Positions 19,884 through 25,429 of a DNA stretch of 47,811 nucleotides are shown here, one piece after another. The stretch covers positions 1 through 47,811 of the forward strand of contig SVED01000008.1 in assembly GCA_015057515.1 (NCBI GenBank), read 5' to 3'. A program made the translations under genes and the position numbers. This DNA comes from Lachnospiraceae bacterium (GTDB lineage: Bacteria; Bacillota; Clostridia; Lachnospirales; Lachnospiraceae). Each line of letters begins with the position of its first letter. Position 1 is the first letter of the stretch. The notes beneath the pieces were generated by a model. The model saw only the letters and a program-made list of their open reading frames with translations, ran no database searches and was not told the DNA's origin.

Positions 19884-19891
19884 GTGAAGTT

Positions 19892-19925
19892 TGCAAATCT
19901 TGCCAGAAATCTGCAAATCTTGCCA
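19892..19925 (+). repeat. Two 14-bp direct repeats, likely LytTR regulator site
   Basis: TGCAAATCTTGCCA occurs at 19892-19905 and again, identical, at 19912-19925, a 20-base period (about two helical turns). The second copy ends five bases before the -35 box of the agrB promoter. Paired direct repeats at this place are how AgrA/ComE-type LytTR activators bind. The motif was not noticed elsewhere in the window. Confidence 0.75.
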
Positions 19926-19930
19926 AGCCA

Positions 19931-19960
19931 TTGAAAAAAAGTAGAAAAGAAAGCTATCAT
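19931..19960 (+). promoter_or_regulatory. Promoter of the agrB-agrD-exporter operon
   Basis: TTGAAA at 19931-19936, 18 bases, TATCAT at 19955-19960. It lies 20 bases before the AgrB start and directly downstream of the direct repeats, the position expected for an activated promoter. Confidence 0.65.
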
Positions 19961-19980
19961 ATCTGTAAGGAGGATATTCT

Positions 19981-20559
19981 ATGATTTCAGATATGATGGC
20001 TTTTTATTTGTTGAATAAAAAACTAATTACTGAGGATGAATTGCCCATATATAAGTACGGATTAAGTGCGTTTGTGAATAGTTTTTCTCAGATTATTTTG
20101 TTATTCCTCTTGGGGGTTTGTTGTGGAGTGGTGTCTGAAACTGTGGCGTTCTTGTTGGTGTTTATATTAATAAGGCGTTTTACAGGAGGTTATCATGCGG
20201 ATACAAAGATGAAGTGCTTGGTGTGTGGTGTATTTATGTGGTTTATTGCCACCTCGGTGAGCAAAGTTTCATTATCTCATAATGTGATTGTGATTTTATA
20301 TCTGGTCATAGTTATATTCTCTGTTGTTATAACATTTAAATATGCACCAGTAGAGCATTATAATAAGCCGTTGAGCAGAAGCATATATGAAAAAAATAAG
20401 AAGTATAGTCGTATTTGCCTGGGTGTTTTCGAATTGCTGGGAGTGTGGCTGCTTTTTATTGATACATCTCTCAGTTATACCATTATGATGACTATTTTTC
20501 TGGTAAGCATATTAATTCTTATAGGAAGGAGGGATTGTCGTGAAAAACTTAGTAGGTAA
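19981..20559 (+). CDS. agrB: Accessory gene regulator protein B (pheromone-processing membrane protease)
   Basis: A 192-residue membrane cysteine endopeptidase that cuts the AgrD precursor C-terminal to the ring and closes the (thio)lactone. The motif RRFTGGYHADTKMKC is present, with His72 and Cys79 seven residues apart as in the staphylococcal enzyme. About five or six hydrophobic segments fill the rest (for example 35-50, 53-64, 81-93, 100-113, 150-184). AAGGAGG precedes the ATG. The agrD-like gene overlaps its last 20 bases. The catalytic pair being intact argues that the system is working. Confidence 0.94.
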   Translation: MISDMMAFYLLNKKLITEDELPIYKYGLSAFVNSFSQIILLFLLGVCCGVVSETVAFLLVFILIRRFTGGYHADTKMKCLVCGVFMWFIATSVSKVSLSHNVIVILYLVIVIFSVVITFKYAPVEHYNKPLSRSIYEKNKKYSRICLGVFELLGVWLLFIDTSLSYTIMMTIFLVSILILIGRRDCREKLSR

Positions 20560-20686
20560 GGTTATCAAAGCAGTTGGTGAAGAAACTGCAAAGATTACCG
20601 TTAATAAGGCTTCGGTGTGGATGTTATATCAGGAAGAAGAACCACAGTCAGTAAGAGAAAGATTTGTGGCAAGTGAGGAGGAATAG
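20540..20686 (+). CDS. agrD: AgrD-like cyclic autoinducer precursor with serine in place of the ring cysteine
   Basis: A 48-residue gene with a GTG start and a strong ribosome-binding site (GGAAGGAGGG) inside the end of agrB. The peptide has the three AgrD parts: an amphipathic leader (MKNLVGKVIKAVGEETAKITVNKA), a short hydrophobic core (S25-V-W-M-L29), and an acidic tail with the conserved proline (YQEEEPQSVRERF). Clostridial precursors typically have Cys-x-W-x-x at the core; here the position is Ser and the whole peptide has no cysteine. Staphylococcus intermedius AgrD also uses Ser and gives a lactone instead of a thiolactone, so a Ser-lactone ring is plausible. The next gene starts two bases after the stop. 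Confidence 0.82.
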   Translation: MKNLVGKVIKAVGEETAKITVNKASVWMLYQEEEPQSVRERFVASEEE

Positions 20687-20688
20687 AG

Positions 20689-21159
20689 ATGAAGAAATTA
20701 AGAAGCAGATTAGTAATGATGACAATGGTAGCAATGTTGGCAATTATAGGGTTTAGTAATAGTGGCGATACCTTGGCTGGAAATACCGCTGATGCTACAT
20801 GGTCATTTTCGCTGAGTGTTAGTAATTCAAATATTCAAAAAATAACCAAAAGGGAGAAAACCGATACTACAAAAATTTATTTACAATGGAGTAGTACCTA
20901 TGGTGGTAATTTATCTGCTATATACGTTTCTCCATATGGTGCAAATAGTTTATCAGGTGGTTCATCTCCTGCAGGAACAAGTGGTGGCGGAGAGGTGTTT
21001 TATAGAGTGCCTTCAACTGGACAATATTCTTTAACCAATTATGTTAAGGAACTTGGATATGGATATGCTACAGTAGGTATGAAGGGTGCTGCCGGTTCGG
21101 GAACTGCGAAAGGCAACTGGAGTCCTGACAGCCGATACAATTATACTATTTTATATTAA
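20689..21159 (+). CDS. Small secreted protein of unknown family in the agr operon
   Basis: A 156-residue protein with a signal peptide (basic MKKLRSRL, hydrophobic MMTMVAMLAIIGF, likely cut near TLAG-NTADA). The mature part is about 125 residues, rich in Ser, Gly, Tyr and Thr, without cysteine, and looks all-beta: DTTKIYLQWSSTYGG, AIYVSPYGANS, then SLTNYVKELGYGYATVGMKG and a final GNWSPDSRYN. I do not recognise the family. It begins two bases after agrD with a ribosome-binding site inside agrD (GAGGAGG), so it is co-expressed with the pheromone. Its position suggests it is the secreted effector of the circuit, perhaps bacteriocin-like; that is inference. Confidence 0.8.
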   Translation: MKKLRSRLVMMTMVAMLAIIGFSNSGDTLAGNTADATWSFSLSVSNSNIQKITKREKTDTTKIYLQWSSTYGGNLSAIYVSPYGANSLSGGSSPAGTSGGGEVFYRVPSTGQYSLTNYVKELGYGYATVGMKGAAGSGTAKGNWSPDSRYNYTILY

Positions 21160-21169
21160 GGAGTGCCAT

Positions 21170-21955
21170 ATGAAAAGAGTATGCTACATAATTGGCATTA
21201 CAGTACTCTTTTTGTGCATTTTCCTTGTTGGTTTAAAGCGTAGAGGTGAACGGGAAGAGCAGGCAGTTGCTCCTTCCAACATCTCTGTAAGAGATGAGCC
21301 GGAGGACTATGTGGAGGAAGATATTAGTATTGCCACAGATGGGGACGCAGATAGGTATGCTGAAAAAAATGAAGATAATGTATACACAATGTCAGATGGA
21401 GCCTGTGTATATGATGGCTTTGCTTATGAGATTGTTGAGGCTAAGATGTATGATTCTCTTGACGAATTTATGCAGATGGATGGATATAATGAAGAATATC
21501 ATAATTTACACAAATTTTGGACAGAAGAGGACAAAACTGTTTCAGTGATTGTATATGTAAAATATAAACTTACCAATATAAGCGATTCAGCTTATAGAGA
21601 CTTAAATATTACTCAATTGGGTGTTGCATATGTCAATGAAGCAGGAGAAACAAGTGGTGGAATTGATTCATATGGAGCAGGACCATATATTGAAGCAATA
21701 TATGCAACCATCCCGGAAAATGCCATAGATGAAAAAAATTTTGATTGTCCTAGACTTGCGCCCCAGGAAACCATTGAACTTGAAATCGCATTTCTTAACA
21801 CAGGTATAAATAAGGATGGTGTTTGGTGTAAGCCTTACGAAATGTATGATGGGGAGTGGTATTTTACAAGCGAGGGCTACAATATATGTATGACTACAGT
21901 ATATAACATATATGAGGACACGGAGCATATAAAAATAAAAATGGATATGGATTAA
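21170..21955 (+). CDS. Membrane-anchored protein of unknown function (1 of 2)
   Basis: A 261-residue protein with one N-terminal membrane segment (YIIGITVLFLCIFLVGL), a low-complexity acidic stretch (about 30-75), and an extracellular domain beginning ACVYDGFAYEIVEAKMYDSLDEF. The domain has alternating beta-type patterns (SVIVYVKYKLTNISDSAYRDLNI, ETIELEIAFLNTGI) like the DUF4352-type immunoglobulin-fold proteins of Firmicutes, but no family is claimed. The in-frame ORF extends upstream; ATG 21170 is chosen because TAAGGAG, overlapping the previous stop, precedes it. The opening of the domain resembles the next gene product. Confidence 0.75.
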   Translation: MKRVCYIIGITVLFLCIFLVGLKRRGEREEQAVAPSNISVRDEPEDYVEEDISIATDGDADRYAEKNEDNVYTMSDGACVYDGFAYEIVEAKMYDSLDEFMQMDGYNEEYHNLHKFWTEEDKTVSVIVYVKYKLTNISDSAYRDLNITQLGVAYVNEAGETSGGIDSYGAGPYIEAIYATIPENAIDEKNFDCPRLAPQETIELEIAFLNTGINKDGVWCKPYEMYDGEWYFTSEGYNICMTTVYNIYEDTEHIKIKMDMD

Positions 21956-21980
21956 AAATTTAAGATAGGAGAAATAAAAT

Positions 21981-22559
21981 TTGAAAAAATACAATCTTAA
22001 AAAGATATGCATTTTGGCTGTCTGTATATTAATAATAATTCTTGTTATATGTCGTGTTTCTTATGTTACAAAAAATGCCCGTGTTCCTGATTTGAATGTT
22101 GTACCCCAGGGGGATAGTGTTGTTTACAAGGGATTGGGATATAGGATAGTAGATGCGGCTTTGTGGGAGTATGACTATTTTTTTGAACAGAACGAAAATC
22201 TTAATAGATATAAGGAAGAATTAATAGATAATGAGATAATGCTGCTTGTTGTGGAAATGGAAATTACAAAGGAGGGTGATAATGGCTATATAGACTATTA
22301 TATGCCTATAAAATATTTCTATGGATTTAACGGTGTATCCCCCTTTATGTTTGCTGATATGAATCCGTCTTTGGTTGATGGTACATTTCACTCAGGTGAT
22401 CATATATATGTGGTTTATGAGATATACAAAAATTCTCTATTGGAAAGTCAATGGAGTGATGTGGTAAATTTTCAGGTTGAATATAGAATTCTACTTGGAA
22501 GCTATCCTGAAAAAAATGAACTACAGATTACAGATATACGAAGAGGTGGTGCAGAATGA
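21981..22559 (+). CDS. Membrane-anchored protein of unknown function (2 of 2)
   Basis: A 192-residue protein with a TTG start behind AGGAG. One membrane segment (residues about 9-24, ICILAVCILIIILVICRV) is followed by an extracellular domain starting SVVYKGLGYRIVDAALWEYDYFF, which lines up with VYDGFAYEIVEAKMYDS of the preceding protein. The domain ends with a beta-rich part (YVVYEIYKN, VNFQVEYRILLGSYPEKN). It overlaps the permease gene by four bases (ATGA), so it belongs to the exporter operon. Could be an accessory or immunity protein; no function is established. Confidence 0.75.
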   Translation: MKKYNLKKICILAVCILIIILVICRVSYVTKNARVPDLNVVPQGDSVVYKGLGYRIVDAALWEYDYFFEQNENLNRYKEELIDNEIMLLVVEMEITKEGDNGYIDYYMPIKYFYGFNGVSPFMFADMNPSLVDGTFHSGDHIYVVYEIYKNSLLESQWSDVVNFQVEYRILLGSYPEKNELQITDIRRGGAE

Positions 22560-23431
22560 TACAATTAGTAAAATTGGAAATAAGTAAAGCGTTAAAGACA
22601 AAAGGCTTTTTTGTAGCAATAGGAATCGGACTGGTTATTTCCATACTGCAAAGCTATTGGTTTTACAATAATGTGTTTACCAATAATAATGAAATATTCG
22701 AGTATTTGATGTCCTTGTCCCCCACAGATTCCCATTATTATGACTTGTGGTTTGAAAATGTTTTTTTAGAAGGATGGCTGGGCTGTGAAGTATATTCTCC
22801 ATACAATAATTTGTTTTATCTTGCCATGCCTTTGCTTGCAGTATTACCCTTTGGCCACAGCTTGTATATGGAGTGGAATAAGGGATATTCATCACAGATT
22901 CTTATAAGAAGTAACAGAAAGAAGTATTTTACAGCAAAGTTCTTAGCAGTATTTATGAGTGGTGGTCTTGCAATTGCAATACCGTTAATATTTAATCTTA
23001 TTATCACAGTATGTTATCTGCCTATTATTCCGGGGGATCCTGTATCTGCGCAGGTGGCAGTTTTTAATATAGGTTTATGGCCGGATTTGTATTTTAATCA
23101 TCCTCTATTATATGCTTTTGCATATATAGCTCTTGATTTTATATGTGGGGGATTAATGGCTTGTATGGCTCTTACTGTCACACATTTTTTTGATAGCGTA
23201 TTTGCTGTCATGCTGTTTCCTTTATTGTTGAATTGTATATTATATTATGGTCTGGACAGTATAGAACCAGCATCCAGAATTTATAATATAAGCTGGTTTG
23301 TCAATCCTGGTCAGCCGGGAATTCGAAACGATTTTAATGCGGTGATTATAACATCAGGGATATGGTTTTTATTACTGGTTATACTTCATTTCGCTTCTAA
23401 TATAAAAAGAGATGTAATAAAAGAGAGGTAA
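22556..23431 (+). CDS. ABC transporter permease (agr operon, first)
   Basis: A 291-residue integral membrane protein with about six segments (near 18-38, 87-105, 125-155, 180-205, 217-235, 262-280) and the opening LVKLEISKALKTKGFF typical of ABC-2-type permeases of the antibiotic/bacteriocin self-protection and export kind. It overlaps the gene before it by four bases and is followed by the ATPase after three bases. Together with the second permease at 24073 it would form the membrane part of one heteromeric exporter. Confidence 0.82.
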   Translation: MIQLVKLEISKALKTKGFFVAIGIGLVISILQSYWFYNNVFTNNNEIFEYLMSLSPTDSHYYDLWFENVFLEGWLGCEVYSPYNNLFYLAMPLLAVLPFGHSLYMEWNKGYSSQILIRSNRKKYFTAKFLAVFMSGGLAIAIPLIFNLIITVCYLPIIPGDPVSAQVAVFNIGLWPDLYFNHPLLYAFAYIALDFICGGLMACMALTVTHFFDSVFAVMLFPLLLNCILYYGLDSIEPASRIYNISWFVNPGQPGIRNDFNAVIITSGIWFLLLVILHFASNIKRDVIKER

Positions 23432-23434
23432 ACA

Positions 23435-24076
23435 ATGAAAATTGAGCTAAAAAATATTACAAAAAAAATAAAGAAAAATACTGTGATTGATGATATAAAT
23501 TATACATTTACAGGAGGATGCATATATGGTCTTGCAGGAAAAAACGGATGTGGAAAAACCATGCTTATGCGTCTTATTGCAGGGCTAATTTATCCCACAG
23601 AAGGCAAAGTATACATAAATGATAGGATGCTCGGAAAGGATATATCTTTTCCGGACAGTATAGGTATACTGATTGAAAATCCAGAGTTTTTGAACGATTA
23701 TACAGGATATGAAAATCTAAAAATGCTGGCAGGCTTACAGAAAAATGTCAGTGATGAGGACATAAAGAATACTCTGGAAAGTGTGGGACTGGACTATAAC
23801 GACAAAAGAAAATTCTATAAATATTCCCTTGGAATGAGACAGAGACTGGGCATTGCCGCTGCGATTATGGGCAAGCCAGACATTATTTTACTGGACGAGC
23901 CAATAAATGCAATTGATGAGGAAGGCGTTGCCCAGATAAAAGAGTTGATTCGTGGACTGGTGGAAGAAAACAGGATAATAATCATTGCCTGTCACGATAA
24001 GGAAGAGATGGATTATCTTGCAGATAAAAAACTTATGATGTCAGCAGGTAAAATTGTGGAGGAGATAATTATATGA
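23435..24076 (+). CDS. ABC transporter ATP-binding protein (agr operon)
   Basis: A 213-residue ATPase. Walker A GLAGKNGCGKTM (near 33-44), the ABC signature YSLGMRQRLGIA, Walker B IILLDEPINAID and the H-loop histidine in IIACHDKEEM are intact. It is shorter than most, with no C-terminal extension. It lies between two six-segment permeases with a 3-base gap and a 4-base overlap (ATGA). The arrangement permease-ATPase-permease fits BcrA/NisF-like exporters that expel or protect against peptides. Substrate unknown. Confidence 0.93.
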   Translation: MKIELKNITKKIKKNTVIDDINYTFTGGCIYGLAGKNGCGKTMLMRLIAGLIYPTEGKVYINDRMLGKDISFPDSIGILIENPEFLNDYTGYENLKMLAGLQKNVSDEDIKNTLESVGLDYNDKRKFYKYSLGMRQRLGIAAAIMGKPDIILLDEPINAIDEEGVAQIKELIRGLVEENRIIIIACHDKEEMDYLADKKLMMSAGKIVEEIII

Positions 24077-24921
24077 TATTTAGATTTGTTTCACATGATT
24101 TAAATGAAGGCATAATCCGGTACAGAAAAAGATATCTGCTAATAATTCTTGTGGCAATTATATCCTGTTTCATGCTGGACAGAAGTACTGAATATATTAC
24201 TACAACCTATGGAGGATATTGGACCCCGCTTGAATATGGAATCAATTTATTTTTAGGAAGATATCCATTTGTATATAGACCTGACAGCATGGATACCTTC
24301 ACAGTACCCTTTGTATGGATATTGACATATATTTTACTTGCTTTTGTTATAGGGGATTATGTACAAAAAGATATGCAGGGCTATGGTATGTATATGATGC
24401 TCAAAAGTAAAAAGCGTTCCTATTGGTGGATTTCAAAATGTGTGTGGTGTGTTATTGTAAATTTGGTCTATTTTGGATTAATATGGTTGACATATATATC
24501 CTATGCGTGGATGAAAAATGGGGATATAGCCATTTATAAAAACTTATTCATTAGAAGTAATTATTTTGGTTGGCGTTTTGAAGATAAGAGCGTAGGATTT
24601 TTAATAATGATGGTTGTGGTTATGCCGATTTTAGTAGGTGTTGTACAGTCCATAATACAGATTTTTTTATCTGTTGTGTTTGATGCAACAGTAACTATGG
24701 TGTTTGTTGCCGGGGGACTGGTTTTAAGCTGCTATTATGGTAACCCGTTAATCCCCCATGGATACGGTATGTTACTAAGATATTATAAAGATGAATCCAA
24801 CCCTGATTTTGTTCCAAATGATATTCAAAGCGGAATAGTGATTTTGCTTACAATGATAGTTATTGCTACAGTAGTTGGGTATGTTTTTTTTAGAAGGAAA
24901 AATATACTTAGTAGACGGTAG
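24073..24921 (+). CDS. ABC transporter permease (agr operon, second)
   Basis: A 282-residue membrane protein with about six hydrophobic segments (near 20-36, 75-98, 115-142, 175-205, 210-225, 255-275). It overlaps the ATPase gene by four bases and is the last gene of the apparent agrB-started operon. No clear terminator follows; a short gap leads to a lipoprotein gene. It shares little visible sequence with the first permease apart from its topology. Confidence 0.82.
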   Translation: MIFRFVSHDLNEGIIRYRKRYLLIILVAIISCFMLDRSTEYITTTYGGYWTPLEYGINLFLGRYPFVYRPDSMDTFTVPFVWILTYILLAFVIGDYVQKDMQGYGMYMMLKSKKRSYWWISKCVWCVIVNLVYFGLIWLTYISYAWMKNGDIAIYKNLFIRSNYFGWRFEDKSVGFLIMMVVVMPILVGVVQSIIQIFLSVVFDATVTMVFVAGGLVLSCYYGNPLIPHGYGMLLRYYKDESNPDFVPNDIQSGIVILLTMIVIATVVGYVFFRRKNILSRR

Positions 24922-25030
24922 ATAATAGACAAAATACCAGTGTTCAGGCATAATCACTATTTTTTGACGTTTTATGTGATATATAAATAACTTAAACGAA
25001 GGAAATCTTTTAATTAAAATAGGAGGACGT

Positions 25031-25429
25031 ATGAAAAAAATACACTTTATATGCTTATTATTGTTACTTTGCTTATGTGGATGTTCCAAAGAATCTGACA
25101 AGGCTGAAAAGGAGGTTAATTCTGGAACAGATGCTTCAGATGTTGAATACATAGATGAGTCGGATTTTTTGCAATCCATTGATGAACAGGCTAAAATCTG
25201 GCAAAATGGTTGTGATAGTATTATAACAGATATATCCAATATCGAATGGGTAGAAAGTGTAAGCATTACACCTTCTGGTTATGAAGAATATATGTCTGCC
25301 GGAAAATGTACCATAACTTGCTCTGTGAATGATGTTGCGCCAGATGAAGCTGATGTAAGGAAAACTCTTGAAGATTATCTGGATGCAGCTAATATTATTA
25401 CAAATTACGAGTTGATTATTATAAATTAA
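25031..25429 (+). CDS. Small lipoprotein of unknown function
   Basis: A 132-residue protein with a lipoprotein signal (MKKIHFICLLLLLCLCGC, lipobox cysteine 18), then an acidic linker and a small domain (SDFLQSIDEQAKIWQNGCDSIITDISNIEWVESVSI). No known family recognised. TAGGAGGA precedes the ATG. A TTGACG at 24964-24969 could be the -35 of its own promoter, with no good -10. It lies 109 bases after the exporter and may be a surface accessory or immunity protein of that locus. A strong terminator closes the region. Confidence 0.72.
   Translation: MKKIHFICLLLLLCLCGCSKESDKAEKEVNSGTDASDVEYIDESDFLQSIDEQAKIWQNGCDSIITDISNIEWVESVSITPSGYEEYMSAGKCTITCSVNDVAPDEADVRKTLEDYLDAANIITNYELIIIN

Follow-up and report, generated by a model that had tools for sequence, protein, structure and literature searches.

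A predicted AgrA box before agrB of a Lachnospiraceae bacterium, with the candidate -10 hexamer nested in a terminator-like hairpin

In a contig from a Lachnospiraceae bacterium (SVED01000008.1), the signal genes of an agr quorum-sensing system lie directly behind its receptor genes, and the short gap between them carries an exact direct repeat. The locus raises the questions of what binds this repeat, and of how a signal gene placed behind receptor genes could stay off below quorum.

The agr genes and the repeat pair before agrB

The window, i.e., the whole 47,811-nucleotide stretch that was analyzed, encodes AgrB, a GHKL kinase AgrC and a receiver-LytTR regulator AgrA, all scoring above the Pfam cut-off (Table 1). 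The putative fourth component is a 48-aa AgrD-like peptide that had no match in a Pfam search and that resembles AgrD-like peptides encoded at the equivalent position in eight relatives. The Cys of AgrD normally forms a thiolactone ring; here Ser occupies the usual Cys position (KASVWMLYQEEEP), which is compatible with an agr system because serine lactones are known in other systems. The eight related AgrDs likewise have Ser (ASTW, ASAW, ASVW, ASRY, ASTQ), and a clade of AgrDs with serine-lactone signals is predicted. The components, together with an AgrA box 5′ of agrB, resemble the S. aureus agr operon, from which the locus differs in the Ser-for-Cys exchange and in its order, agrA-agrC and then agrB-agrD; by this order the box would therefore drive the signal genes, not the kinase and regulator genes. 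Besides a secreted protein and a lipoprotein, the region 20689-25429 behind agrD encodes membrane-anchored proteins and an ABC ATPase accompanied by two permease-like proteins. Most of these products have no Pfam family and are named from their ORFs; their genes may form an output or immunity cassette.

Table 1. Features of the agr locus (positions in the window)
Feature	Position	Strand	Remarks
agrA, response regulator with receiver and LytTR DNA-binding domain, 242 aa	17873..18601	+	Pfam LytTR E 3.3e-19, Response_reg E 8.2e-17
agrC, membrane histidine kinase with GHKL ATPase, 432 aa	18585..19883	+	Pfam HATPase_c_5 (GHKL) E 8.7e-20
AgrA (LytTR) box, distal half TGCAAATCTTGCCA	19892-19905	+	exact repeat; binding predicted
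AgrA (LytTR) box, proximal half TGCAAATCTTGCCA	19912-19925	+	exact repeat; binding predicted
-35 hexamer TTGAAA (predicted)	19931-19936	+	equivalents with matching spacing at other sites and in other lineages
Hairpin 5′ arm, 18-bp stem	19948..19965	+	contains the whole -10; ends at about the putative start
-10 hexamer TATCAT (predicted)	19955-19960	+	29 nt 3′ of box
Shine-Dalgarno AAGGAGG of agrB	19967..19973	+	read from the sequence; inside hairpin loop
agrB, membrane peptidase processing AgrD, 192 aa	19981..20559	+	Pfam AgrB E 5.2e-39
Hairpin 3′ arm	19988..20005	+	agrB codons 3-9, running into T run TTTTTATTT
agrD-like signal precursor, 48 aa, GTG start	20540..20686	+	core KASVWMLYQEEEP; overlaps agrB end
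Secreted protein, 156 aa, likely output gene	20689..21159	+	family unassigned; paralogue behind box in G009
Lipoprotein, 132 aa	25031..25429	+	3′ of agr genes; paralogue is the gene behind C43 box

The first-pass annotation of this DNA had reported a 14-bp sequence repeated exactly with a 20-bp period and ending five bases before a TTGAAA/TATCAT promoter. A repeat search of the window confirmed both points: the two copies of TGCAAATCTTGCCA are identical 14-mers of period 20, and the proximal copy ends 5 nt from TTGAAA, with a spacer of 18 nt between TTGAAA and TATCAT. The similarity is somewhat longer than the exact copies, 18 of 20 bases matching between the repeat units over 19886-19925. The pair is the sole exact repeat of at least 12 bases at period 18-24 in the 47.8-kb window, and a repeat of 14 or more bases arose in one of 5000 shuffles of 19884-19980. 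The same annotation had placed the gene for the LytTR regulator immediately upstream; the adjoining gene is instead agrC, and agrA is one further up. We infer a transcription start for agrB near 19967, relative to which the repeat centers fall at about -48 and -68.

The pair is very probably the binding site of AgrA, because its period, position and system-specific words match published LytTR sites. Those sites consist of 9-bp repeats with 11-13 bp between them, 4-11 bp upstream of the -35, and their spacing is conserved while their sequence is poorly conserved between systems (PMC6193735). In C. difficile, RgaR activates the agrB1D1 promoter through such sites, and the critical G residues of the spoZ promoter are at -51 and -72 (PMC10602386); the P2 promoter of S. 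aureus has an 18-nt spacer (PMC4227749). The pair examined here lies within the published range of 20-22 bp, at its short end, has the expected distance to the -35, and is linked to agrA. With the AgrA boxes of S. aureus P2/P3, the LytTR systems of S. mutans and RgaR of C. difficile it shares direct repeats near the -35 and a cognate LytTR regulator encoded nearby, with P2 also the suboptimal spacer, and with RgaR the agrBD promoter as target. Unlike known LytTR sites, it has its own word, TGCAAATCTTGCCA, and a -10 nested in a hairpin arm. Judged by its geometry, the box itself is a classical LytTR/AgrA box, ordinary and of a known kind.

Recurrence of the box in the genome, congeners and order

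Pattern and family searches covered all 117 contigs of the genome (2.15 Mb). The genome-wide scan for the repeat pair that the first-pass annotation had proposed returned two loci beyond the window, C43 (no mismatches) and C50 (three mismatches), and a reversed-pattern control over the whole genome gave zero matches. The C43 box precedes the gene of a lipoprotein paralogous to the 25031-25429 product (48 of 125 residues identical), and the C50 box has mrp upstream and the gene of a secreted protein downstream. At the window, C43 and C50 sites a -10 (GCTATCAT or GCTACCAT) follows the box at 28-29 nt.

Zero-mismatch pairs occur in three of 37 congeneric genomes, namely this one (G000), G009 and G033, and are confined to congeners with this agr lineage; these genomes have three, two and one pairs, respectively. 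In G009 and G033 a box stands before agrB at the equivalent position, and G031 and G012 have an altered box, TGCtatttTTGCC. The spacing of 28-29 nt between box and -10 holds for the sites of G009 and G033 as well. Conservation of the box tracks identity of the AgrA LytTR domain: the box is the same at 99/103 identical residues, nearly the same at 57/102 and altered at 51/102, and at 37/98 or less the box word is different. The expectation that the motif would reveal a regulon was borne out, a small one being found in the genome and its congeners.

A rule of spacing extends over the order. We scored near-exact direct repeats at 42 agrB loci, each with its own promoter region, and found period 20 in 12 loci and period 21 in 14, every other period from 13 to 33 occurring in at most one locus (shuffles expect 0.15-0.85). 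The box word varies from one agr system to the next and the period is kept. A further scan, of a contig database, yielded only six loci; their sources were Lachnospiraceae MAGs from the gut of water deer and sheep, a UBA assembly, and an isolate of Eubacterium. The period-20/21 rule and the system-specific words would allow regulons to be assigned to each agr system of one genome. Two further agr systems with LytTR genes are found in this genome at C20 and C115 (L065, L066); their boxes, GCGCTCATGACA and CTCCATTTTTAA, have period 21, their upstream gene is divergent, and they are without the nested hairpin.

These data bear on two other readings of the pair. That it is a chance or functionless relic might be entertained of any single short two-copy repeat, which may arise randomly, and in this case it is scarcely credible: the pair recurs exactly at unlinked promoters and in a relative whose AgrB is 82% identical, and period 20-21 holds family-wide. 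Binding by another regulator, for instance another LytTR protein of the genome, has in its favor that the genome contains six LytTR matches and three agr systems; it is nonetheless improbable, since each system has its own word, the other two carrying repeats different from this one, and since, among congeners, the pair is found together with this AgrA lineage.

Under the preferred reading, with AgrA as the binding protein, AgrC would sense the AgrD-derived peptide and phosphorylate AgrA, a dimer of which would bind both repeats from the same side of the helix, immediately 5′ of the -35. Bound AgrA would then activate agrB-agrD and the output genes behind them, giving positive feedback through signal production, and at least two other loci, C43 and C50, would be under the same box. 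The predicted autoinduction of agrBD is well supported by sequence comparison. Both parts of the earlier proposal, LytTR binding and autoinduction, gain comparative support; we found no box before agrA, so feedback is visible on agrBD and the downstream outputs only. The evidence had been called strong; it is comparative. For a gut lineage that is uncultured, the box thereby supplies a motif to search with and defines a small regulon of agrBD with its outputs, the paralogous lipoprotein and, in a relative, a secreted paralogue.

A hairpin over the agrB start

The more interesting part of this promoter is the nesting of its -10 in a hairpin arm, a feature absent from the first-pass annotation. 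A hairpin, first listed as an inverted repeat, spans the agrB start (predicted MFE -24.1 kcal/mol, z -5.3), and its 22-nt loop holds the Shine-Dalgarno, unpaired, and the agrB ATG. The predicted fold depends on the 5′ arm: an RNA from about 19967, the inferred start, is without this arm and has no unusual predicted fold (z -0.3). The hairpin is terminator-like, with an 18-bp stem and a T run (TTTTTATTT), but it is A+T-rich with a 22-nt loop and was not called by a short-loop scan; because of this composition and loop length, termination may be weak. The unpaired Shine-Dalgarno is a further point against a silencing role.

The hairpin probably insulates agrB from agrA-agrC read-through, a view that we hold with moderate confidence. 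RNA reading through from agrA-agrC would contain both arms, and would either terminate at the T run or go untranslated, its start site being hemmed by the stem. RNA driven by AgrA would start after the 5′ arm and be free of the hairpin. If so, signal production would be strictly quorum-dependent despite the position of agrB right after agrA-agrC, genes that have to be expressed first, and this would answer how a signal gene behind receptor genes stays off below quorum. The design would be compact, the promoter serving as its own insulator, and the same nesting would serve other promoters of the regulon.

Protection of this kind has precedents. Tn10/IS10 and IS200 guard themselves by 5′ terminators or by RNA structures, which arise only when a transcript was initiated externally. 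The protection of Tn10/IS10 from external promoters is credited to work by Davis, Simons and Kleckner in 1985 (cited in PMC2965389). As in those elements, the structure at the start of agrB would be expected only in incoming RNA, and the gene's own promoter would be the one that counts. Unlike them, the hairpin would guard a quorum-sensing signal gene, its 5′ arm holds the promoter's own -10, and its ribosome site is in the loop, unpaired. We found no report of nested promoter-terminators in agr in the open-licence literature, where absence is a weak sign; the nesting of promoter and terminator-like element is a variant unreported in that literature.

Recurrence and covariation of the nested hairpin

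Nesting of the -10 in a hairpin is common to six agr lineages and two other regulon sites, with compensatory changes. The layout was read by eye in G033, G031/G012, G005/G035, G289 and G073: the 5′ arm holds a -10-like hexamer, and a -35-like hexamer stands at a distance of 16-18 nt from it. In G025, which is related to G005, the version is weaker. The two other sites are C50 (-34.8 kcal/mol) and G009 C196 (-22.2 kcal/mol), whose hairpins look like ordinary terminators behind the upstream gene. C43 has the exact box followed by GCTATCAT at the usual distance, without the hairpin, which is a weak point of the insulation model.

Frequency was measured with a near-perfect-stem score (threshold 30 or more) with gene controls; a generic duplex-energy hairpin test had been dropped as too permissive, long interior loops scoring well. 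The threshold was reached by 10 of 29 agrB genes that lie behind a co-directional gene at 70-240 nt, a figure inflated by relatedness, for which reason six lineages are counted. Among controls it was reached by 1 of 85 other agrB genes and 4 of 174 other genes. L109 passes the threshold and was excluded from the six lineages for its different, interrupted geometry.

Since MAFFT misplaced the G033 5′ arm, arms were exchanged among the genomes to assess covariation. Combining a 5′ region with a foreign coding start lowered the score in both directions for G033, G031, G289 and G073; for G005 a higher score was reached solely with its relative G035, and G025 is an exception to the pattern. The residues encoded by the 3′ arm differ (D-M-M in G000, N-S-I in G033, N-I-I in G031), and matching changes are seen in the non-coding 5′ arm.

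The distribution of terminators is what one would expect if agrB needed insulation from agrA-agrC transcription and obtained it in two ways. The nested junctions of G000, G009, G033, G005, G035, G025, G289 and G073 are without an ordinary terminator between agrC and agrB, and those of G031 and G012 have a weak one. Eight of the remaining class-A loci, which are without the nested hairpin, have an ordinary terminator, although roughly half of the loci that lack the nested hairpin showed no terminator of either type.

Two competing accounts of the hairpin can be weighed against these observations. It could have arisen without selection, simply because the AgrB N-terminus is conserved and the DNA A+T-rich; conserved Phe/Leu codons account for the T run, and related loci share ancestry. 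This we consider unlikely, as the non-coding 5′ arm covaries with the amino-acid changes in the 3′ arm across G000, G033 and G031, and as nearly all cases of the structure occur at junctions that follow a co-directional agrC. The hairpin might also be a regulated attenuator of agrB, with transcription starting upstream and some other signal deciding between termination and read-through. A stem-loop that ends in a T run within the gene start, and that recurs in several lineages, would suit an attenuator, yet such a device needs a start 5′ of the stem, and the distance from box to TATCAT is fixed at 28-29 nt throughout the regulon, also at the hairpin-free C43; moreover, no alternative fold was found for the transcript from the gene's own promoter. 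Attenuation is therefore doubtful, to much the same degree. As to insulation, we lean slightly toward a recurrent clostridial architecture in which the agrB -10 lies in a terminator-like 5′ arm that only AgrA-driven transcripts escape.

Some further loci deserve mention. At G009 C196 a system-1 box with a nested terminator (L049:1501-1533) lies behind a GH3 gene; downstream of it there is another direct repeat, ACGCTCGCGACA / ACGTTCGCGACA (L049:1663-1694), of period 20, which resembles the box of the other agr system of G009; the gene behind both is a secreted paralogue of the 20689-21159 protein, and control of the locus by two agr systems is possible. At G039 C44 (L028/L111) an intergenic terminator, AAAAAACATCTAT-AATAAAG-ATAGATGTTTTTTTT, shares bases with a -10, TATAAT, that follows a box of period 21; this is possibly another promoter nested in a terminator. 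Finally, a perfect inverted repeat of about 31 bp per arm, GGAGCGAAGGGTGTGTTTTTTGGAGTAAACT (L003:1658-1753, i.e., G000 C50:12793-12888), sits between the box/terminator of C50 and the secreted CBM-like gene, and is present in a single copy in the assembly.
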